From Phoenix dactylifera (Eukaryota; Streptophyta; Magnoliopsida; Arecales; Arecaceae): DNA of 64,000 nt. Location of the stretch: positions 3,203,001-3,267,000 of the forward strand of contig NW_024067666.1 in NCBI RefSeq assembly GCF_009389715.1. The letters run 5' to 3'. Positions 21,701-61,100 of this stretch are shown here, piece after piece. The notes under the pieces are model-generated. The model was not told the DNA's origin. It was given only the letters and a program-made list of their open reading frames with translations, and searched no databases. The translations under genes were made by a program, and so were the position numbers. Every line of letters starts with the position of its first letter. The first letter of the stretch is position 1.

Positions 21701-22899
21701 AAAACTATAGTAATCAGCATCCATAACCCTTTTCTCTTTAGTCAGGTTTGTGGCGTATCTTCTACACCATTTAATCGGAACTCTTTGATTTAACGGTCTC
21801 ACACGATAGTATGTAAAGAAATATAAGGATCGAGCAGTTGACGAGTTTAAAAGAAAAGCTATCCAATTGGCATTGTTACAGAAGGGTTCCATGAGAAGCA
21901 AAGTCTAGACTCATTAGCATTTCAAAAGGAGGTAATAATAATAATAATAAAACCACCTAAAACAGACACAGCGCAACAAGACAGAGATGTTGATACCAAA
22001 ACTATAAATTCAACTTTAAATTGAAATCTAATCAAGGCCGACATGTTGAGAAGGATATATTAGCTACCAGTTTCAACTATAAATTTATTCCAAATCCAAT
22101 CAGCGAACAGTGCACAGCAAAATTAAGACAGAGATGTTGATAATGCTAGCATAATTTTCATATCCTGCAAACCACACTAAAATTGTATGAGAACGACCAG
22201 ACCTGCCAACAACTCTTTTCACACAACTCACTGCCCAACCACATATATCACACCAGGTTGCTTCCACCACAAAAAAAAAAAAAAAGAAGAAGAAGTGTGC
22301 AGCAGATTTTGGTTAAGCAGTAAACAATTCTTTAATACTGGGGAATGATCTAACCTTAAACAGGCAAATAGTGAATTTGTGCATTTTGCTGTCTATTGTA
22401 GTCAGGAGACATGTAAATAAGCTGGAAAAAAATGCAAGAAGTAAGGCACCAAATAATGTACAATGATCTTAGATCTGAATTCCATATCTTAAAGCATATA
22501 TTACAGTGTGGAGCCTAATTTAGAACTACAATGATCCTAGACCTGAATTCCAGATCTTAAAGCATATGCTACAGTGTAGGGCCTAATTTAGAACTAAGTT
22601 TTTGAACATGCAAAATGAAAAAGCAGAATATGTGAGACAACATTCCTACACATACCATGTTTTCAATCGACTCCACTAGAAAAATCAAACAGGCAAAAAC
22701 TGTACAAGTATTGTTTTCCAAACTAAAAGCTGCCAGTACGAATACACAATTGCATGGTCGAAACTGAATCCAACTTGTCTGCCATATATGATAGCCAGAA
22801 TGTGATCACACAACCCCAAAGGCCTAGAGTAACAAATCATTTAAAGCACAAAAACACTCCACAAGAATTGAGTGTGTTCCTTTACCATCCAGACTGCAC
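18740..22899. other. intergenic, no gene seen
   Basis: Contains the WRKY 3' flank, a G-box-like CACGTG near 20174, a very AT-rich block at 20460-20870 that may be an old mobile element, and a TAA microsatellite near 21932-21950. The right end includes the 3' flank of the broken zinc-finger gene. Open frames here show no recognisable domain. Confidence 0.4.
22460..22595. repeat. 68-bp tandem duplication
   Basis: Two adjacent copies, 22460-22527 and 22528-22595, both start ACAATGATC and end TTTAGAACT and differ at a handful of positions. It lies about 300 bases past the end of the zinc-finger pseudogene. Confidence 0.85.
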
Positions 22900-27104: not shown

Positions 27105-27680
27105 TAGGACCAAGGTACGCCGAATCGGGCCGAACCGCCCAATTCACCCCATACCAAATTGAACTGGTACGGAACCACGTCGGTTCGGCCCTAATTTTTG
27201 AAACCCCCTAAAGTGTTTTGAGCTGCTCTAAACTGCCCAGTTTGGAACCGGTGCAAATCACTCGGTTCGCACTGGTTTAAACCAATTTGGCCCCTTTTGT
27301 CTCCGTTCTTTTAATATATCAAAGAGCTGGTCTATCGAACGAGGGTGAACTGGTTCCCCTCGTACCAAACTGCATAGATCCCGATATTAGTTCCGCTAGT
27401 CGACAGGCACAGATCCCAGTACTAGTTCAGCTAACCCTATCATATCAATTGAGTAGCAAGTAAGGTTTGCCGTATCGGTATCGAACTTCGTATCGGTGCC
27501 ACACTATCATAGTGTCGGTACGATACGATAGGCGGTACGTCTGACGTACCGAGTGTCAATATGGTATGCTATACGGTACGTCTGACGTACCGAATATCGG
27601 TATGCCATTGATACTGATAGCGGTACCAATAAGGCATGCCCTGGTACCCTTCGGTATGGTACAATATACCATGGCAAACA
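27105..27680. mobile_element. non-autonomous DNA-element-like repeats with foldback motifs
   Basis: Within the large intron lies sequence dominated by variants of GGTACG, TCGGTA and CGTACC. Two segments start alike: near 27112 (AAGGTACGCCGAATCGG) and near 27461 (AAGGTTTGCCGTATCGG). CGGTACGTCTGACGTACCG, palindromic except for its centre, occurs twice at 27533-27551 and 27574-27592. Dense short inverted motifs of this kind are typical of subterminal regions of plant DNA transposons. I could not define ends or a target duplication. Confidence 0.5.
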
Positions 27681-28303
27681 TCATCACAGTTGTGGATTGA
27701 CCATGTGCAACATGACGGATGTTTCTTTTCTTTTCCTTTCGTTTTTTCTCTTTTCCCTTTTCTTGTAGAAAATGTCGGTAATGGGCTGCCCATTGTAATG
27801 TTGAAGCAAAAAGATAAATCATGAAAACCCCATTCACAAAGATAATTAGAAATAAGGTGGGAAAATGGTGAACGGAGAAAGAAAGCATGGAGCTATAACA
27901 ATATAAAGAGAAGAGAAAGGAATGCACTCACAGCTCCATAATGGCGAACCGAAAAGCCCTGTGCCTCCCCTCTTCCGTCCCCATAAATAGTAAGACGTCG
28001 AATCCACACCAGGCGCCGCCGCCGCCAAAGCCGCTTGGATATAGGGGTAGGATGGGCAAGGTAGCCATCGTAGCCGTCGCCGTGCGCAGCAGAAGGGTCC
28101 CCGCGCGGCACCCGGAAGGCCCCAGGATCGACGGAGGAGGCGGAATTATCGTGCGCGAGGATCGGTTTAGGGTTAAGATTAGGGTTTGGGAGGAAGGAGT
28201 AGGAGGGGCCGACGTAGAGTTGGGGGTGGTGCGCGGCGGCGGCCCGCCGTAGAGCGGTAGAGGTGGTGGCCGTTCTGGTGCGCCTGCGGAACTTTGAATC
28301 CAT

Positions 28304-34839: not shown

Positions 34840-36327
34840 TCAATTGGAGATCACACCAACCAGAGGCTCGTGCTTGAGGCTGCTTCCAGCCCACCATGAC
34901 TGCATCTCAGCACTCCCATTGGCACTGTTAAAATCTTCATCGACGGGAGCCGGGAGGTTGAGGTCGAGCAAGTCGGGCATCTCCAGAGGCTGCTGCTGAG
35001 TTACAATGGTCTGACGGCGAGCTGCATCGCCTCTGTCATTGGCGTTCATGACCAAATGAGCTCTCTTGTGACCCCCCAATGCCTGGCCTGAAGCGAAGAC
35101 CTTGCCGCAGAGCAGGCACTCATGGCCCTTGGCCTTCTTCGGCGATCCATTGGCGGCTTCAATGCCCACACCTTGGCCGTCCATCTCCTCGGCCGCTGCC
35201 TGATCAACAGAAGCATCGGCCTCCAAGCTGTTCTCACTGCCGGAGCATCCCTTCGTCCTCTTGTGGCTCGCCCGGTGGCCACCGAGGGCTTGGTAGGAGT
35301 GGAAGGTCTTGTTGCAGGTCGTGCACTGGAATCGGCTCCTCCTCTCGGAAGCCTTATCAAAAACGCCATGGGAAGCATCGAGCCTGTACCTTTCAATAGA
35401 ATCCATGCCAAATTGAGCATCGGAAAGATCGAATCTTTGCTTCTCAATCGCGAATTCGCTTCCATCAAATCTGGGATTCAGCCCCGATTCAGAAACGGCA
35501 GAATTCAGATCGTTCTTCTTCGAGCTATCCTTCTTTGATTCTTCATCGAAGTCCTCAGGCTCATCAGCGTCGGAATTACAGACCTTGGGCTTCTTAAATT
35601 CATTATCCCCGACAAACCAATCATCGGAAGCTTCAGATTCCACCCTCTTGAACCCACTCCTCCAACACCCCCCGCTTCTTGGAACAAAATCCCCATCCCC
35701 TTCGCCAATTCCCCTCCCCTCAAAGACCACAGAATTCTTATCAGAAGACTCGGTGAACGAATGAATTCCACCAGCGCCGCCGCCGCCTCCACAGTACCAG
35801 GCATCCCTCGACAGCATCATAAGGCTTATAGCTCCATCCTCCTCCTCCCTCTCGTACTCCGACACCGAGGAAGAACTCGCAGCAATCGCCGCCACCATCC
35901 TTCTCGATCCTCGCCTCCTCCTCGGCACCGCCACCGCCGCAGCCTCACCCTCCGACTGCCCGCCATTGCTCCAAGAACCCTCCTGCTCTTCTCTCTCCTC
36001 TGAAGCCGGGCACACCCTCTCAGAGTGGCACCTCATGTGCCCAAACAGAGCTCTCCAGGACGGGAACTCCTTGCCGCACTCCCGGCACTGCTTCTCACCA
36101 TCATCGCTAGTACAATCCGATATCCGCCACGTCTTCTTGGGTTTCTCCCTCAGTCCATAGCCGGCTCCTCTAATGCTTGGCGCCGCCCTCTCCTGGCCGT
36201 TGTTCTCGGAGCTCCCGGCCACCGCCATGCGGAAGTGTGACCTCATGTGGCCCCCCAGCGATCGGCCCGACGGGAAGCTCTTCCGGCACACCTTGCACCG
36301 ATGCTTCTGCAATCTCTCTCCTTCCAT
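34840..36327 (-). CDS. C2H2 zinc-finger repressor with four fingers and EAR motif (ZAT4/ZAT9-like)
   Basis: A nuclear transcription factor of the plant-specific Q-type C2H2 class, likely a stress-linked repressor. It is a single exon of 495 residues. Fingers are at C11/C14/H27/H31 (GRSLGGH), C81/C84/H97/H101 (WRALFGH), C335/C338/H351/H355 (YQALGGH) and C404/C407/H420/H424 (GQALGGH). Finger 2 has Phe instead of Gly in the signature, like the N-terminal pair of ZAT1/4/9 proteins. A basic patch RRRRGSRR (137-143) may be a nuclear signal. An EAR repression motif LLDLNLPAP sits at 453-461; in this family it recruits TOPLESS-type co-repressors. The middle (about 150-330) is low-complexity and acidic. 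The ATG at 36327 lies 13 bases before the first cluster of finger residues in protein terms (HRCKVC at 9-14), as in relatives. A ZAT4/ZAT9 assignment within the clade is approximate. Confidence 0.93.
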
Positions 36328-43645: not shown

Positions 43646-45091
43646 TCAGGCAACAGCAGGCAAATCCTTGAGCCATGGATCCAGTGGCTTCCCAATCGAG
43701 TACACAATGAATCCAATCTCCCTAAGCTTCTCTGGATCGACCACATTGCGCCCATCAAATACAAAAGCTGGCTTCTGCATGTTCTCGTGGATCCGCTGAT
43801 AGTCTAGAGACTTAAACTCATCCCACTCAGTCAGAATGCAGACGCCATGTGCTCCCTTGGTGGCCTCATAAGCATCCCATGTCACAGACACCTGCTGCTT
43901 CACCGCCGTCGGACTCATCGGCTGCAGGTGGATTGGGTGGTCCCAGTCGAACTTGTTCATTGCGAGGTCGCGTTGGATCTGGTCCTCAGTCACCTGTGGA
44001 TCATAGATGCTAATTGTGGCCTTGTCCCCCAAGAGACCCTTGCAGACATCAATTGCAGGAGTCTCCCTTGTGTCGCCGGTGTCTTTCTTGAATGCAAACC
44101 CGAGCACAGCAATCTTCTTGCCGGATACGGTATTGAACATGGAGGACACAACCCGGTTCACAAACCGGCTCTTCTGGTAGTCATTGATCTTGATGACCTG
44201 CTTCCAGTAGTCAGCCACCTCAGGCAGACCATTGCACTCACAGATGTAGACCAGATTAAGGATGTCCTTTTGGAAGCAGGAGCCTCCGAACCCTACACTG
44301 GCATTTAAGAATTTAGGACCAATCCTTGAGTCCTTCCCCACAGAATAGGCCACCTCTGACACATTCGCCCCGGTGGCCTCGCAGAGTGCGGAAATGGCAT
44401 TGACAGAGGAGATCCTTTGTGCCAAGAAGGCATTTGCTGCAAGCTTCGACAGCTCTGCGGACCACAGGTTGGTCGTTATAATCCGATCCTCAGGCACCCA
44501 ATGGGCATAAACATCTTTTAGTGCCTGAACAGCCTTCTGGCCCCCCGGAGTCTCCCGGCCGCCAATAAGTACCCGATCAGGATTGAGCAAGTCCTGGATT
44601 GCTGTACCCTCTGCAAGGAACTCTGGGTTGGAGAGGATCTGGTAGTTGATTCCTTTGCTGTTGTGGGTTAGAATCTTCTCGATGGCCTCAGCAGTCTTGA
44701 CTGGGACCGTGGATTTCTCGACCACAATCTTGTCGGACTTGGAGACATCGGCAATCATGCGGGCAGCACTTTCCCAGTAGGTGAGGTCAGCAGCCTTCCC
44801 TGCCCCGAGGCCGCGGGTTTTGGTAGGAGTGTTCACTGAGACAAAGATGATGTCAGCCTCATAGACATGCTTCTCAACGTCAGTGCTGAAGAAGAGGTTC
44901 CTTCCGCGGCACTGCTTGACCACATCCTCGAGGCCTGGCTCGTAAATTGGAAGCTGATCGCTATTCCATGCATTGATGCGGGTGACAGAGATATCAACAA
45001 CAACTACCTCAATGGTTGGGCACTTGAGGGCAATGACGGCCATGGTCGGCCCACCAACATAGCCAGCTCCAATGCAGCAGACCTTCACCAT
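43646..45091 (-). CDS. UGD: UDP-glucose 6-dehydrogenase
   Basis: The enzyme oxidises UDP-glucose to UDP-glucuronate with two NAD+ in the cytosol, supplying precursors for pectin and hemicellulose. The uninterrupted frame of 481 residues has the N-terminal Rossmann loop GAGYVGG at 8-14, NTPTKT at 87-92, [11 protein letters not shown] at 125-135, [10 protein letters not shown] at 155-164 and the active-site segment [10 protein letters not shown] with catalytic Cys272. Later come [13 protein letters not shown] and, near the C-terminus, FDGRNVVDP. Length and motif order match plant UGDs, which are about 480 residues and characteristically have an intronless coding region. The gene looks fully functional. 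The 5' UTR is split by a leader intron and the promoter adjoins a tandem repeat array; both have their own entries. Confidence 0.98.
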
Positions 45092-45113
45092 TTTTTCTTC
45101 CTAATTCTGTGAC

Positions 45114-46656: not shown

Positions 46657-47617
46657 ATTAAAATTATAAGTAATATGGTTCACCGTAAAAAGCAACAAAT
46701 CAGGCCTTATATTCTGATCCACACTCAAACAGTGAGAGATCATTTGGGAGAGTCATGTTTCTTTTTTTTTCTCCGTCATTTTTTTTTTTTTTTTTGTTGA
46801 CTCTATTGATTGCACTCATATTCGGCCAGTATGAGTTGCCATTAAAACTATAACTAATAACAACAAAGAGCGAGAGACTCTGTGGAAGAGTCATCTATTT
46901 CTTCTCCTCTCCGTTATTTTTTTTTCTAATTCTATTAGTTGTACTCATATTGGACTAGTATAAGTTACCATTAAAACTATAACTAATAACAACAAGGAAT
47001 TAAGCCTTATATTCTAATCCAGACTCAAAGAGTGAGAGACTCTCTGGAGAGTCATCTGTTTCTTCTCCTCTCCATCATTTTTTTTTCTAATTTTATTAGT
47101 TGCACTCTTATTTGACTAGTATGAGACGCCATTAAAACTATAACTAATAATAACAAGGAATTAGGCCTTATATTTTAATCCATGCTCAAAGAATGAGAGA
47201 CTCTCGAAAAGAGTCATCTGTTTCTTCTCCCCTCCATCATTTTTTTTTATAATTCTATTAGTTGCACTCATATTCGAGTAGTATAAGTCACTATTAAAAC
47301 TATAACTAATAATAACAAGGAATTAGGCCTTATTTTAATCCATACTCAAAGAATGAGACACTCTCAAGAAGAGTCATCTGTTTCTTCTCCTCTCCATAAC
47401 ATTTTTTCTAATTTTATTAGTTGCACTCATATTCGACCATTTTGAGTCACCGTTAAAACAATAACTAATAATAACAAGGAATTAGGCCTTATATTCTAAT
47501 CCAAACTCAAAACACGCATGAGAGACTCTCTGAAAGAGCCATCTGTTTCTTCTCCTCTGCGTCATTTTCTTTTTCTAATTTCACTAGTTCCACTGATGCA
47601 CGTCCAGTGCAAGTCTC
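46657..47617. repeat. six-unit tandem array, about 160-bp monomer
   Basis: Head-to-tail units start at 46657, 46841, 46970, 47131, 47293 and 47452, most with (A/G)TTAAAACTATAACTAATAA. Lengths are about 184, 129, 161, 162, 159 and 166. Each has, in order, GGAATTAGGCCTTATATTC (absent from unit 2), a GACTCTC..GAGAGTC foldback, CATCTGTTTCTTCTCCTCTC, a T-run and TTAGTTGCACTCATATT. Inner units resemble each other most. The array lies about 200 bases upstream of the UGDH TATA box. Confidence 0.9.
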
Positions 47618-52154: not shown

Positions 52155-55100
52155 TTACACCCGTAATCTGGTAACCCTGCCACCATTGCTCTTTTGGTTG
52201 CTAAAGTTAAGCCTTCGCGGCCCTCCAGTCCAGTCCTCGTCGTCATCATCATCGTCATCCTCACCATCTTCACCTTTACCGCGCGCAGCTTTTCCGCTTC
52301 TTGAACTTCTTGGAGTAGGGTGTTTCCTCTTGACATTAGCTGTGTAAGTTGCATAGTCTATAGTATCTTCCCTAAGCAACCTCTTGAATTCCTGCATTAC
52401 AATATCATATTATGAATTAGTGCAATCTGGAACTTTGCATTGTGAAGGGCACGGGAAAATGCGGAACAGGGTAATAGGTTTAAACCTAACAAGCAGTTGA
52501 TAACTGGGCTATGGTCAGAAAGTGGTCATGTGAATTACAACACAAACTGTTTTCAGCCAAGTGACACTATAGTTATATAACTAATAAGCCAATATAATGG
52601 AAGAAAGTTTACTTTAATGTGAGACTGATGACTGACCGAATTGTTGATAGATCTTTTTCCAATTAAATCAGGTTTTTAACATGAGATAAGAAAAACAACA
52701 ATCAAATGTCCAGAAGTTCCAAGGACTTCACGTGTAAAATGTCAGATTTATATTAGTGCAGCAATACAGGATGTCATTTTAGAAATCTAAAATTTCAATA
52801 GCAAACCTGATATTTTTCAACCATATCTTGATAAGAAGCAGGCAAACTGATTGGAGCATCATGGATGCTGAAGGGAATATTTTGCTTAGATATTGTCTCT
52901 CCAGGCTTTGGATGTTCCTTCAGAGAAAATGCCTAATGCGGAAACGAATGGAGATTTTTCATTAATTGGTTTGAGATAATTGAATGGGCATGATCTACAG
53001 CAACAAAGGCAAGAAATGACTACTAAGTTAAGAAAAGAACAAACCTGGCACCGGGCATCATTTAAACCATACACAATTTTTAAATGTCTTTTCAGCTTTA
53101 GGAGGAGTTGCAGAGCTATTGCATCATGGCAATCAGCCTGAAAAGCAAACAGAATGTCAATAACCAGTAGAACTAATTTGTACATGAGACTAAGATGGCA
53201 TTGTAGTAGCACCACTACTTGATAAAAATAGAAACTCTATGACTTTGATAAGAAACAGAACAATATCAAATTGTATATGGAAAATATTAAAGCAACATAA
53301 GAACAAAAGATTCAACATAAATTGCCATTGACAGGAAAGACAGGATAGCAAAATGTACAGTGAATTCTCATCCTGCTTCAATGATAGAAAATTTACAAAA
53401 GAAAACAGAAATAATCTATTCATGATTATCCTGCTTCAGCATCCGCACAACTGTTATCTGACTGAAGAGAAAAAGAAAATTTTATTACCTGAAACTTTTG
53501 TAGGTCTTCTTTTGAAATACCACATGTATTGTTAGATATACTTTCAGGAGTCACTGTCATGATGTGCTTGGATAAATGATGCACTCCAGGTTCGGCTTCC
53601 ACCTTTTGATTTTCACTAGGGAACTTCACAGAATCCCGCTGCTGTGAGAAGGAACTCCACGTTTTCATATTTGCCTCAAGAGACCCAGCTCGGACTTGTA
53701 TTACTCGATTGATATCATAAATCAAATAAAGAGGCTCATCAGGGCAAGTAAATGGGAGAGATGCAAGAATTTCCGTGCAATATCTACAAAAAGCAGATAG
53801 CATTTTCAATTCAAATGCTTATTGAATTATAATCTAGCATAAGAAAGATAATTTTTTGGATACTTACAGAAGAAAGCTAACTGATGAATAATTCCAACCA
53901 GCAGACTCAAATTTCCGCACTATTGAGTGCATAAATTTGTTCCTTGAAACACGATTTCCTCGAATAAGCCTGTATATTCGAGATATTCCTGGCCTGACAA
54001 ATGCTATGGGATTTCCATCAGATTTTCCTCTTGCATTTCCTGATACTGTATTATGGTTGCTTGCAATTGATTGGACAAACTTATATGACATCTGGAGCCC
54101 ATCTCCCAAACGGCTTTCAAAGAAAGAAGGATACCTGCAAAAATACAGATATTACTTAACCTATACCATCCCAACGTGTAAAAATATTAGAAAGGCAACA
54201 CGTCTAATTAGATTCATACTTTTCATTCATGTTCATGAGCAAGAGATGGGCCAACTTTGAATTCACCTCCAGTGGATCAGTTTCTAGTGCTACAAGATAT
54301 GGAACGCATGTAATTGGATGAACCAGACCTTGACGTAGTACAATTTCTACAATCTGCAAAATAGAACAAAAAAAAAAAATCAAATGGAAAAACAGTGCAT
54401 AGCCAAAAAAAAAAAAAAGAAGAAGACAACCTATGGGCAAGGCACAAAGCAAAAAAAAAAAAAAACAGCACACAGCATACAATAGATTTCTTATGGGAAA
54501 AAAGCAGTAAGAGTAGAAAAACCAGCAAGAGTAGAAAAGTCAGGTTCTTGCCTTTAGTGCAGATTGACGAACTTGATCATTCACATCCAAGCATGTTTCC
54601 AAAATACTATTCCAATACAACTGAACTATTCCCCCACAAATGTTAGTGTCACCTGCACCCGCAGCCTCAGGCACTCTGTTTGCAGCGTCTTCTGAATATT
54701 TAGTTGCAGTCTTATTGACAGAGTTGGTAGTCAGCTGGCTTTCCGCATCCAGAAGATATTCATATAGGTTTTGCAAAGCTTGCATCTGCTAAAAATGATA
54801 GATTATAATGGACAGATAAAAGGGATACATAACTAAAAAAAACAAAATACAAGAACCTTTAGTCGAGAATCAGCGCCTGAAGATAATGAGGTCTCTAATA
54901 TTTTCCCAATATCCTTTTCCAACATGTACTCAGGCCTAGCAATCAGAATGTAACCTAATGCCTACAAAAGATAATGTAGCATAAATCAAATGCTTGAGAC
55001 TGTAACTACAACTTCATTAATAAAATCTGGGGGAAAATGCTCACCTGTAAAGCCCGGACCTTCAAGCCAAAATCCTCCGCAAGCAGATATTTTTTCACCA

Positions 55101-58100
55101 ACGAGAGACTCTTAACAATATGAAGACATTGGTTATCAGATGTAACCATTAGTTCATTGCCATACCTAAGGAGAAGCCCAAGACAAAAAAGAGAACGCCC
55201 CAATAACTGAACATTAAAGAGAAATCACACTTTGTCAGGTAATAGAATCATTAACTAAATTGCAGATACATTGGCAATGATTAGAGAGAAAGAGAAAGAG
55301 ATGTGAAGCAGAAACCAAGTTGATGTACTCCAACGGTAAAAGCCAAGGACAAATATTAACCAAGTTGTATGGGCAGAGTGCCAAGGCTAGTGTTGGGCAT
55401 GGGGCCGTGCCGGGCCGGGCCGGCCCAGGCCCACCGGGCCCGAGGTCTAAACGGGCCGTGCCTGGCCCGGCCCGCTTATGAAGCGGGCCGTGCCGGCACG
55501 GCCCGTCGCGGGTGCAAAAGGAAGCCCGGCCCGGCCCCCGGCCCGTCTATTGGCGGGCCGGGCCGGGCACGGCACGCCACGGGCCGTGCCAGGCACGGCC
55601 CGTAACGGATGGCACGGCCCGCAACGGTGAGGGGTGAGGAAAATAGCCGTTTCCAACGGCTATTTTGGGAAAAAGTCGGTTTTACCCCTCCCAACAGTCC
55701 AATAACGGCTGAATTGAGGGGTATTTTGGGAAAAAAAATTTTGGCCTTCTATAAATAGCCCTTTCCTCCCTCATTCTCACCACACCAAACCAACTATTCT
55801 CTCCTTCTCTAATACTATTATTTCTCTCTTCTAAAGTGCTCTTCTAGCAATTTAATTTTTAGTTTGCATTTAGCAAGTGTTCAAGTGCTACACAAGAGGA
55901 GGTTCCTGTTGAGAAGAGAAGGTCACTCCTGTTGAGAGCACAAGAGGAAGCTCAGAATCTCGGCTCTGCGGCTCTGCCTCTGCCCTCCGACCCTCTACTC
56001 AATTCCTCCAATCCTCCTTGTGGTTAGTTTTTATTTTTTTAATTCATCAATTTAGATATGTCATCTTTTGAGGAAAGTCAGTTCGGCATTCCTCCTGTTT
56101 CTGAGGGAGAAGAAACTAATCTCCAACCCCATGTTCCTAGTTCCTCTAGAACTAGTGAACCGAGTGAAGATCAAGCCTCTTCTCGTAAGAGGACTAGTGC
56201 TGTATGGACTGAATTTGATAGAGTTATGGTTGATGGAGTCTGAAAAGCTAAATGTAAAAAATGTGCCAAACTGTATAGTTGTAGTAGTAGTGGGGGAACA
56301 GGGCATTTAAAAAGACATCAAGAGAGTCATAGGATGCATGATTCTCATGCTCAAACTCAAAGTACCCTTAATATACAAGGGCGAATACTTGTAGGTAATT
56401 TTGCATATAATCATGAAAATCAAAGAAAAGCACTTGTAAAATGGATAGTTAAGGATGAATTACTTTTTAGTTTATGTGAATCTTTTAATTTTGAAGAATA
56501 TGTTCAATTAAACCTACAACCTGCTTACAAAAGAACTAGTAGGCGTACATTTAGAAGAGTAGCTATGACTAACTTTTTAGCAATGAAACAAAGTTTAATT
56601 GAATCACTTTCTACTTTAAATGTAAAAATTTCATTAACTTCTGATATTTGGTCAGCATCTGTAGGTAGTAATTGTTTTATTGCCATTACTGCTAATTATA
56701 TTGATAATGATTGGCAATTAAATAAACGTATTCTTGCTTTTCGTGCTTTTGATTTTCCACATTCTGGGCAACAAATTTCAAATATCATTTATCAAACTGC
56801 ATGTTCATATAATATTAATGATAAAATTATGTCTATTACTTTTGATAATGCATCTAATAATAATTCTGCTGTTGCATTATTAAAAGACTCATTGCATCCC
56901 ATGTTAGATGGAAATTTATTGCATATTAGATGTGCATGTCATATCTTAAATCTTTCTGTTCAAGCTGGCATGGGTATGATTCAAGATGTGATTGGTAAAA
57001 TTAGAAATGCAGTTTCTTTTATTCATGCTTCAAGATCAAGACTTCAAGAATTTAAGAAACTATGTATAAATCATGGTAAACGTTTTAAAAAATTTAAACT
57101 TGATGTAATTACTCGTTGGAACTCAACATATAGCATGATACATGATGCATACCCATATAGAAACTTATTAAGTGCATATATTAATGATCGTGGATTAGAC
57201 TTTACATTGACTGAAACTGATTGGAATAAAGGAAAAATTTTGGAAGATTTTTTGCTTAGTTTTTATAATGCTACCAATGTTCTTTCTGGTATTTATTATC
57301 CAACTTCATGTTTATTTTTACAACAAGCATATATAATTAGTCAAAAATTTGCAGAACATAGATATGATGATGTTTTAATGCCTATTATTGACCTAATGGA
57401 ATCTAAATGGAATGAGTATTGGGACAAGATATGTCCTATGCATAACTTAGCTGCTGTATTTGATCCTAGAGTTAAATTAAATGGCGTGCTAATTTTACTT
57501 GATGCATACTATGAAAATATGATTAAAGATCCTGAACCTGCTAAAAATGAGGTAAAACAACTTCTTTATGATATTTATGCTATATATGATGAAAAAATTC
57601 GTGGATCTAGAACACAAATACAAACCTCTATTCCTTCTTCTAGTAGTTCTCGTTCGTCATCTATTTTTTCATTCATTGCACAGAGAAGACACACACATGC
57701 TTCAAGTTTATCTTCATCTTCTTCATCTTTAAGTAGTGAACTAGAATTTTATTTACGAAATGATCTTCAGTCTGCATATGATGAAAATCAAATAGAGAAT
57801 CTAGATGTATTATCTTGGTGGAAGAGTGTTAGAAATCAATATCCTGTTATGTCTGCAATTGCACGCGATATTTTAGCTGTGCCGATGTCCACGGTAGCAT
57901 CGGAATCCGCTTTTAGTGCAGGTCGGCGTGTTCTTGACGAAAAGAGAAGTAGGATGACGGGCGAAACGGTGGAGATGCTTCTCTGCTTCAAAGATTGGTT
58001 GGATGCTGAGGCAAGACTTCAAGATAAAGGTGGACATAATACAATATCCTCTGATGATGATGATACAAACACTACTGAAGACTGAAGAGTGAATACTGAT

Positions 58101-61100
58101 TCACTGAATCACTGATGATTAGTAAGATTTCTTAATTTTTTATAATTGTACATTTTTATTGTATTCTGGAGGTCAGACCAAGGTCCAAACCTCGGCCCTT
58201 TGGCCCCTTTCTTATTGTATTCTGGAGGTCAGACCAAGGTCCAAACCTCCCTTCATGTACCATTTTGATTTAAATTAATAAACTGGTAGGGGTCTATGCC
58301 AAACCCCCCACCATTAAGGTGGCTTTATATTCATAAATCCTTAGTTTTCAATATTTATTAATTTATTAAAAAAATTTATGAAGCATTAATTTTTATCGGG
58401 CCGGGCCTGGCCCAGGCCCGGACCGTGCCAGGCCCGCGGGCCAGCCCGGCCCAGGCCCTGATGGGCCGTGCCGGGCTGGCCTGCGGGCCTAGAGCGGGCC
58501 GTGCCGGCCCAGGCCCGAAGCGGGCCGTGCCTGGGTCGGCCCGCGGGCCAGTAACCTGTGACCCGGCACGGCCCCTTTAAATGGGCCGTGCCAGGCACGG
58601 CCCGGCACTGTAGCTATCGGGCCGTGCCAGACACGGCCCTCTTCGTGCCGGGCCGTGGGCGGCCCGGCCCAGTGCCCAACTCTAGCCAAGGCCAAAGTAC
58701 AATAATTATTGTTACTCAATTATAATGCACAGTTAAAGGGTCAAAACAACAGGATGTGTTCGGATTTTTAAATGATTAAAGTTCTGATTAGCTTTAAAGA
58801 AAAACAAGAACTAAATATCTAATTATCTCTAAAAGTAAATATCAGAGAACACTTACCTAAATCACCCATGCTACTCATTTAAAAAATTAGGTATGCACAA
58901 AAAATGGTAAATGACACAACAATCTACTTCCATAAGCTGTGACATCATGCAAGCATTAAATATCTTAGCATCAACAACTGTAAAAAGTGAAAGCACTTAA
59001 ATGACTTGCTGCTAGAATGATATTATCTGCAAGTTGATTTTAACATGTATGAGATATGATAGCTTTACGCATGACAAATAGCAATAATAACAAGAAACTG
59101 TGGTAATTATTTAATGTGGCTTCCACAGAGATGTGAGATACCAACCAACAAATTCTAGTAGTAGGCCTTGTGCATGACAAGGCCAGAAAACTTGTAATGT
59201 TGAGTGCATGCATTTTGTCAGCAGCAAATGGACCAAACATGAGTCACACAAGATGACAAAATAGATAAATACATATATAATAAAGAAAAGCTGGAAAATT
59301 TAGTAAATAAAATTACAAATTATCTGTTGAATGTATTAAACCAGTAACTAAGATGAACATATACTGACTAAAAAGGAGAGCAAAAAGACATAGATACAGA
59401 TATTAACAAATGGCTTCTTGCTTAGATCTATAATGCAAGGGATGTTAGTTAGGATAATCTACCAGGATAGGGCACTGATATCAAACAAGTATTGGCATGG
59501 TAACACCAATATGGATAAAGATTCTTTTACAATTTCCCTAGATTCCTCCAACTAAGAGGTCCTAATTTTGTCGGAAAGAATCTAGAATCTAGAATACATT
59601 AACCATACCACAAATAATTAGAGACCTTGTATTCTTTTGCTGCTTCCAACCCCACAAAATAGGCAATGCACATTTAAAAAACAGTTATTAACATAAAACA
59701 TTAGAAAACATAGTTACTGGACATAAAGGTCTCGACTCTAAATTCAAATTCACATCGATCAACTACCTCTAAAAGACATACTTCTTTTATGCGCTGTCAT
59801 TTTGCAGCATAATCACTAATATATGTTACAAAATAATGTCTGAAATCTCACATGATCGCCACTATCTGTAAGTAAAATCACTAAATTCTTTCCTTTTAGA
59901 AGAAAGTGGGTGGGTGGGGGGGTCTCAAAAACTATGGCACATCATAATAGCATCTAAGAATAAAACCGATACACAATGTACAAGCGGTACAATGATTTTT
60001 CAAGGACATATTCCACCCCAAAAAAGCCTAAAAATACATCGAAATTAATGGTAAGATCATACATGCATGAATCTGTAGTAGATGCATGATGCATGCATTC
60101 CCTATTCCATAAACCAATGAAAAGAACTACTAGTATTAAGATCTTTGGTTATTGTTATCTTCAGTGCCATCGCATTTTACAATTTAAATGAACATTTTTC
60201 CTAAAAAAATTACACAACGATGTCTCTGGAACTGTCATGACCTACCAAACAAATTAGAGAGAGAGAGAGAGAAAGAGAGAGATCAAAACAAATGAAAAGA
60301 TATAACGATCCAATCTTATTTAGAAGACAAGGTAAAACTTTAGATATGCAAGCAGATGTAGTACATGTATCATCAAAATCCCGACCAACAATATGATCAT
60401 GTTGGCATTAAGAGGGTAAGACCCAAAGAGACAAGTAATAGAAATCCTATTTAACACGCAATGGGAAACATCCCTACTTCACAATATACAGGCAAAGTAA
60501 AGATGACTACCTGTTTATTATCAAAATTTGGACCATGCAGATGTTTGGAAAAAATCTGAATCAGATGCTCAACTAAACTTGTTCCTTTGCCAGCTATTTT
60601 ACTAAGTGAACAAAGGCACCTGGATGAAAATAGAAATATCAGCTTTCAATAGTAATTAACAGCCCAGAGGCAGCATTTAGTGAGAAAAGAAGAAACGGAA
60701 AAAGCATGCATTCGGACTAAGAATTTTAAAAAAAAAAAAACAAAAAAAAATACTGATGTAATGATGCAACAACATAATTCACATGAGCAACTATCCATAG
60801 AGGACCACAGAAACCAAAATAGCAAAATTGTTGAGAAAGCAACGTGGGGAATGGGAAATGGACACATTTAGCTACCAAGAACAAAAAAGAAAAAAGGGAA
60901 GAAAAAACATATCAGCTTATTCTGATATTTGCATGCTTGGATCCTGATGAGCATAATTAAATCAAAATGCTGAGTCTGAATGTATAACTAATATATCTTC
61001 ATCAAGTAAAACAAATTTGACACACTATTTCAAATTCAAGATCATACAATCTCAAAGGCTACTTTTTTATTATAAAAAGATGTGATTGATCCATCTCAAT

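Follow-up and report, generated by a model that had tools for sequence, protein, structure and literature searches.

Known hAT Transposons and the Palm Element

The closest described systems are Ac/Ds of maize and Hermes of the house fly. Ac/Ds, a plant hAT, produces 8-bp target-site duplications, has ends of 11 bp and carries repeats in roughly the outermost 200 bp on either side (PMC3260210). In Hermes, the target is also of 8 bp, and the BED domains of the transposase bind subterminal repeats, recognizing AAGT and then AT-rich DNA (PMC10368747). In the date palm, hAT is the commonest superfamily with terminal inverted repeats in the cultivar Deglet Nour, with 2,001 elements; the accessible portions of the report give no family, ends, ages or frames (PMC12295771). 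The present work concerns a 64,000-bp stretch of the Phoenix dactylifera genome (contig NW_024067666.1, positions 3,203,001 to 3,267,000), hereafter the window, in whose coordinates positions are given. It holds a 3,297-bp hAT element (55388-58684), inserted antisense in a 5,304-nt intron of SCC2. This element is, with high confidence, one copy of a young, high-copy and largely self-encoding hAT family.

The palm element resembles Ac/Ds in being a plant hAT with 8-bp duplications, short ends (12 bp) and repeats close to each end. The several AAACGG subterminal hexamers per end that define the Ac/Ds family proper are not found: within 200 bp of the ends, a single hexamer is present on the left and none on the right. 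The subterminal arrays are very rich in G+C, unlike the AT-rich DNA bound in Hermes. In itself, the SCC2 copy is an ordinary hAT member; it is the family that is unusually large and young, and largely self-encoding. Among 903 elements counted in maize, three resemble Ac, with small rearrangements (PMC3260210), whereas a coding word of the palm family alone has 517 exact matches. Literature searches gave no description of the family among the open-licence papers listed, and it may thus constitute a further hAT family.

Structure of the Element

An earlier note on this DNA had reported a nearly intact hAT in SCC2, and the ends, arrays, TATA box, transposase frame and exact 8-bp duplications were all recovered. 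The 8-bp target-site duplication of the hAT superfamily, GCCAAGGC, is present at 55380-55387 and again, identical, at 58685-58692. The short terminal inverted repeats of the superfamily are also present, 12 bp in length, as TAGTGTTGGGCA on the left (55388-55399, plus strand) and TAGAGTTGGGCA on the right (58673-58684, minus strand). They agree at 11 of 12 bases, and similar ends recur genome-wide in other copies. Among all exact 8-bp direct repeats of the window with a spacing of 150-8000 bp, five flank 12-bp inverted ends with at most two mismatches, and only those of the SCC2-intron element have at most one. Of the other four cases, two have homopolymer repeats, one is AT-rich and one lies within the element's own arrays. 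Taken alone, the 12-bp end pattern shows no excess in the window (15 occurrences with up to two mismatches, for 13.1 by chance), and it is matched in full at the two ends of the element only.

The two subterminal arrays are built of repeats that resemble GGGCCGTGCC and stand in either orientation. When a single mismatch is allowed, this word is found 23 times in the window for 0.57 expected, always in the arrays: 12 matches fall in the left one (55400-55640, about 77% G+C) and 11 in the right one (58391-58672, about 76% G+C), against a G+C content of 33% in the reading frame. As single-stranded DNA, each array folds better than 200 of 200 shuffles, with a fold z-score of -11.4 for the right array. 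Between the arrays, a TATA-like box, TATAAATA (55750-55757, plus strand), recognized by its sequence and of putative promoter function, is followed by a transposase frame of 675 codons plus stop (56058-58085, plus strand; ATG at 56058, stop at 58083-58085) and by AATAAA at 58277. A 41-nt repeat in two copies, 56 nt apart and 98% identical (58153-58249, plus strand), also lies downstream of the frame.

The Transposase

The longest open stretch of the frame counts 613 codons, for a maximum of 153 in 300 shuffles. The core and dimerization region of the hAT superfamily are both present: hAT-like_RNase-H (PF14372) is matched at 57294-57563 (38.3 bits, cut-off 27) and Dimer_Tnp_hAT (PF05699) at 57741-58001 (91.2 bits, cut-off 21.4), both on the plus strand. 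The 613-aa stretch also matches Hermes transposase structures (6dww, 4d1q, 2bw3, 8edg), which align in part or in whole over its residues 129-583; the kinship is distant (E 2e-15). The D of SDIWSA and the E of VASESAF, the latter within the dimerization match, align with the catalytic D and E of Hermes. The second catalytic D is presumably that of TFDNAS, placed by its motif, where the Hermes alignment is off by two residues.

The single TGA that the earlier note had placed inside the BED finger is indeed the sole interruption of the frame (codon 62, 56241-56243, plus strand), but it is located four codons upstream of CKKC (codon 66) and not within the finger, whose probable remains (CKKC ... 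HLKRHQESH) extend over 56253-56330 on the plus strand. Translation thus ends ahead of the zinc ligands, and the SCC2 copy could yield a protein with the finger only by a bypass of the stop. For this reason, the copy most likely makes no working transposase.

The Host Gene

The intron (GT...AG, 55207-60510) is on the minus strand and would measure 1,999 nt without the element and one duplication; the intronic and antisense position claimed earlier is thereby borne out. The flanking exons, upstream at 60511-60619 and downstream at 55045-55206 (both minus strand), join across it in phase 0. A six-exon protein, joined by eye, matches human NIPBL with an E-value of 1.9e-29 and also matches the Mis4 and Scc2 chains, which confirms the kinship of the host gene to the cohesin loader SCC2/NIPBL. 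The stretch that matches NIPBL best comes after the intron; a second, weaker match (i-Evalue 0.00049) spans the exon junction. A literature search for SCC2 together with hAT gave no relevant paper among those listed.

A second SCC2-like stretch is found on contig C687, with 80% identity over 634 bp and another short match 21 kb further on. The first 685 bases of the extracted locus (L068, G000:C687:71800-77300) are SCC2-like, with a stop and an apparent frame shift in the part read, while the rest of these 5.5 kb has no match to the upstream SCC2 exon or to the intron of the window. It looks like a decaying partial duplicate, judging from its sequence. This broken fragment, the only other such stretch found, was rejected as a stand-in for the empty insertion site.

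Size of the Family and Its Insertion Sites

The assembly searched has 2,391 contigs and a total length of 773,078,369 bases. For a 31-bp coding word that does not vary among 40 copies, 517 exact matches (254 and 263) were obtained, and none for the reversed-pattern control. With at most one mismatch, left ends were found 542 times (274 and 268) and right ends 576 times (279 and 297), again with none in the controls. A few right-end matches lie less than 100 bp apart, so the number of ends is not quite a number of elements, and these counts cover the subfamilies searched, leaving aside more diverged or shortened derivatives. As the ends are not much commoner than the coding word, the counts suggest that most copies of these subfamilies keep their coding part. 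On contig C4, two same-direction members (G000:C4:31712857 and 31715934) are separated by 3,077 bp when measured at the coding words and by 3,078 bp at the right ends; this spacing is shorter than one element, possibly owing to a tandem copy or a shared end. Relatives were also looked for in collections of viral and genome contigs, where none was confirmed, the 1 and 23 pattern matches obtained having failed in tblastn.

Two sets of copies were compared with each other. The first set consists of the SCC2 copy and 39 others, the best 40 of 946 candidates of a DNA search. The second set consists of eight copies of a younger group, picked, among rows without stops only, from the best 72 rows of a protein search that had 1,541 candidates. 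Target-site duplications are exact over 8 bp in 24 of the 39 others of the first set, differ by one base in six more, and are exact in all eight younger ones. Comparison of the 150-bp flanks of the 47 other copies indicated that three pairs (L014/L016, L023/L026 and L038/L039) share their flanks, with the same or nearly the same duplications. Each pair thus represents one insertion, either segmentally duplicated or present as both alleles. No other pair shares flanks, and none of the copies shares those of the SCC2 copy, which leaves no sign, over these 150 bp, of one segmentally duplicated block as the source of the copies.

Relatives without the stop, whose existence the earlier note had supposed, are common: 36 of the 40 copies of the first set have no stop at codon 62, and 15 are open from start to stop. 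The outcome that the note had named as contradicting its reading, namely that all relatives would be heavily lesioned, was checked and did not occur. In the protein search, 57 of the 72 best rows show no stop inside the match, a figure that includes the SCC2 copy, whose stop precedes the query. Some of the single-base shifts seen in other copies may be assembly errors.

Age and Selection

The SCC2 copy differs from the nearest of the 39 copies by a p-distance of 0.0084 (0.84%), and distances range up to 3.2%. Its end branch measures 0.0044, with 11 private substitutions in 2,750 sites, in agreement with the recent insertion proposed earlier. The single lesion of the frame, presuming that it was open at insertion, gives maximum-likelihood divergences of 0.0030-0.0061 depending on the share of indels, with upper bounds of 0.014-0.029. 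With 2.6e-9 substitutions per site per year, the end branch corresponds to about 1.7 million years, and with 7e-9 to about 0.6 million years, which would make the insertion roughly 0.6-1.7 million years old.

According to a nuclear dating, the date palm and P. sylvestris parted about 8 million years ago, and North African date palms separated from Asian ones about 3.2 million years ago (PMC8476131). The plastid tree is younger, with about 2 million years between the North African date palm and P. sylvestris, and gene flow is reported (PMC8476131). Given these dates, most of the sister species should lack the insertion, unless it was introduced through gene flow.

In the younger subfamily, a 200-bp piece of one member has 45 identical matches, and over about 2,720 sites, five of the eight copies differ from their nearest copy at 1-3 sites, a sixth at 6, and the others at 12 and 22. 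The ratio of nonsynonymous to synonymous differences per site (pN/pS) amounts to 0.46 when 14 open copies from the older group are set against seven younger ones. It is 1.30 within the 14 older open copies, 1.34 within the clade of 17 to which the SCC2 copy belongs, and 0.24, from few changes, within the seven younger copies. These sets omit L046, which is open and groups with the younger set, and L067, one of the eight younger copies. With neutral-looking ratios within the clade and constraint between subfamilies, the simplest reading is that copies would drift after insertion, the founding lineage being kept working.

In the clade of 17, the frequency of transitions at CpG and CHG sites exceeds that at other sites by factors of 6.8 and 4.3, respectively, as would be expected if the copies are methylated. 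None of the 11 private changes of the SCC2 copy is a CpG or a CHG transition. CpG-transition variants of the array motif were considered as an age test and given up: the SCC2 copy has none, but it is only one of 32 such copies among the 48.

Proposed Mechanism and Alternative Explanations

The anatomy of the element is observed, and the mechanism is reasoned from the hAT superfamily. The transposase, produced from an element's own gene, would bind the GGGCCGTGCC-like subterminal arrays via its BED fingers, and its RNase-H-like core would cut at the TAG...TTGGGCA ends. Insertion with an 8-bp staggered cut would then leave GCCAAGGC on either side, as presumably happened when this copy entered the SCC2 intron. 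The SCC2 copy, with its complete ends, should behave as a non-autonomous element that the transposase of intact relatives could move. Inserted copies would evolve without constraint, and selection would maintain function in the lineage that founds new bursts.

Several observations weigh against this account of a young, self-encoding family. The 1,818-bp right flank of the intron occurs once in full in the assembly, which offers no empty site there, and the duplications of nine of the 39 others of the first set are mismatched at 3-8 bases, although truncated ends may have misplaced the scan. The zf-BED profile reaches only 13.9 bits for a cut-off of 20.6 with the TGA read as X, a weak recognition even if the CxxC ... 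H pattern is visible, and single-sequence structure prediction was unusable (mean predicted local distance difference test score of 34.8). The eight open younger copies were chosen from stop-free rows and are no sample of the subfamily. Finally, the insertion age depends on the substitution rates assumed.

The alternative that survives best concerns the history of the stop. It may predate the insertion in SCC2, having been carried by a copy that was already moved in trans, which is possible but rather less likely than not having done so. Among the 47 other copies, three that lie at different sites also have a stop at codon 62, and in the protein search, open frames of exactly 613 aa, seen in 5 of 72 rows with the SCC2 copy included, point to a fifth carrier. 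The four carriers are, however, scattered on the tree, where the stop requires four changes by parsimony, and beyond the stop there is no site exclusive to carriers, except one common to two of them. Yet such homoplasy is not rare: among 51 variable sites with minor counts of 3-5, ten also need four or more changes. Because of this, the shared stop may reflect recurrence, gene conversion or the movement in trans of an old variant, histories that the tree does not separate, and it would be unsafe to treat the stops as four independent events. CpG decay is unsupported as the origin of the TGA: comparison with 43 of the 44 stop-free copies (the 44th differs otherwise) makes the change a transition at a non-CpG site.

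The same homoplasy is what gene conversion would give, and it could be taken to mean that the element is an old inert relic whose young look comes from homogenized copies. This is very unlikely. Although 26 of the 45 inner branches of the tree have a support below 80, a rapid burst gives poor resolution as well. Moreover, the 8-bp duplications, which lie outside any converted unit, show no mismatch in 32 of the 47 other copies, with duplicates counted; the frame of the SCC2 copy has one interruption in 2,028 bases.

A harmless TGA, with the protein restored by readthrough or by splicing of a small intron, is also very unlikely. There are 69 GT...AG combinations of 60-500 nt that keep the rest of the frame open, one of them 63 nt long with a GTAAGA donor (56185), but so many are expected in a long open frame, all of them span codon 62 and remove coding sequence, and 44 of the 48 copies are free of the stop without any splicing. 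Equally improbable is that stop-bearing copies start at Met93, the in-frame ATG at 56334 past the finger, to make a finger-less repressor of the family: the RNase-H and dimerization parts are open downstream and the stop is present in 4 of 48 copies, but the pN/pS of the SCC2 copy's clade points to no constraint.

Other Features of the Window

Two long open frames lie on the minus strand, at 43646-45100, which we take to encode a UDP-glucose 6-dehydrogenase, and at 34840-36327, presumably a multi-finger C2H2 protein. A tandem array with a period of 161 bp (4.5 copies, 86% matches) occupies 46864-47594, and a 68-bp unit is present in two tandem copies, 90% identical, at 22459-22596. The region 27110-27690, possibly the worn end of another element, contains a 41-bp tandem unit and numerous degenerate words that resemble GGTACG or CGGTTCGG. 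CpG is raised at 27400-27700 (observed/expected 1.25).

Significance for the Family and the Date Palm

In maize, the best studied case, self-encoding Ac elements are few and defective copies many (PMC3260210). The palm genome, by comparison, offers hundreds of coding-part matches, and its youngest copies are recent enough to make present-day activity plausible. With many of the compared copies young and their transposase gene unbroken, the family may still be moving. A stronger version, in which a subfamily of dozens of near-identical, self-encoding copies would still be inserting today, cultivars would differ at many sites, and finger-less proteins from codon-62 copies would damp the family, is tentative and, on present evidence, somewhat doubtful. 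The family lends itself to the question of how a cut-and-paste transposon can increase in number without its copies becoming mostly defective. It is also a possible source of insertion markers among date palm cultivars, and the insertion in the SCC2 intron constitutes a datable event.

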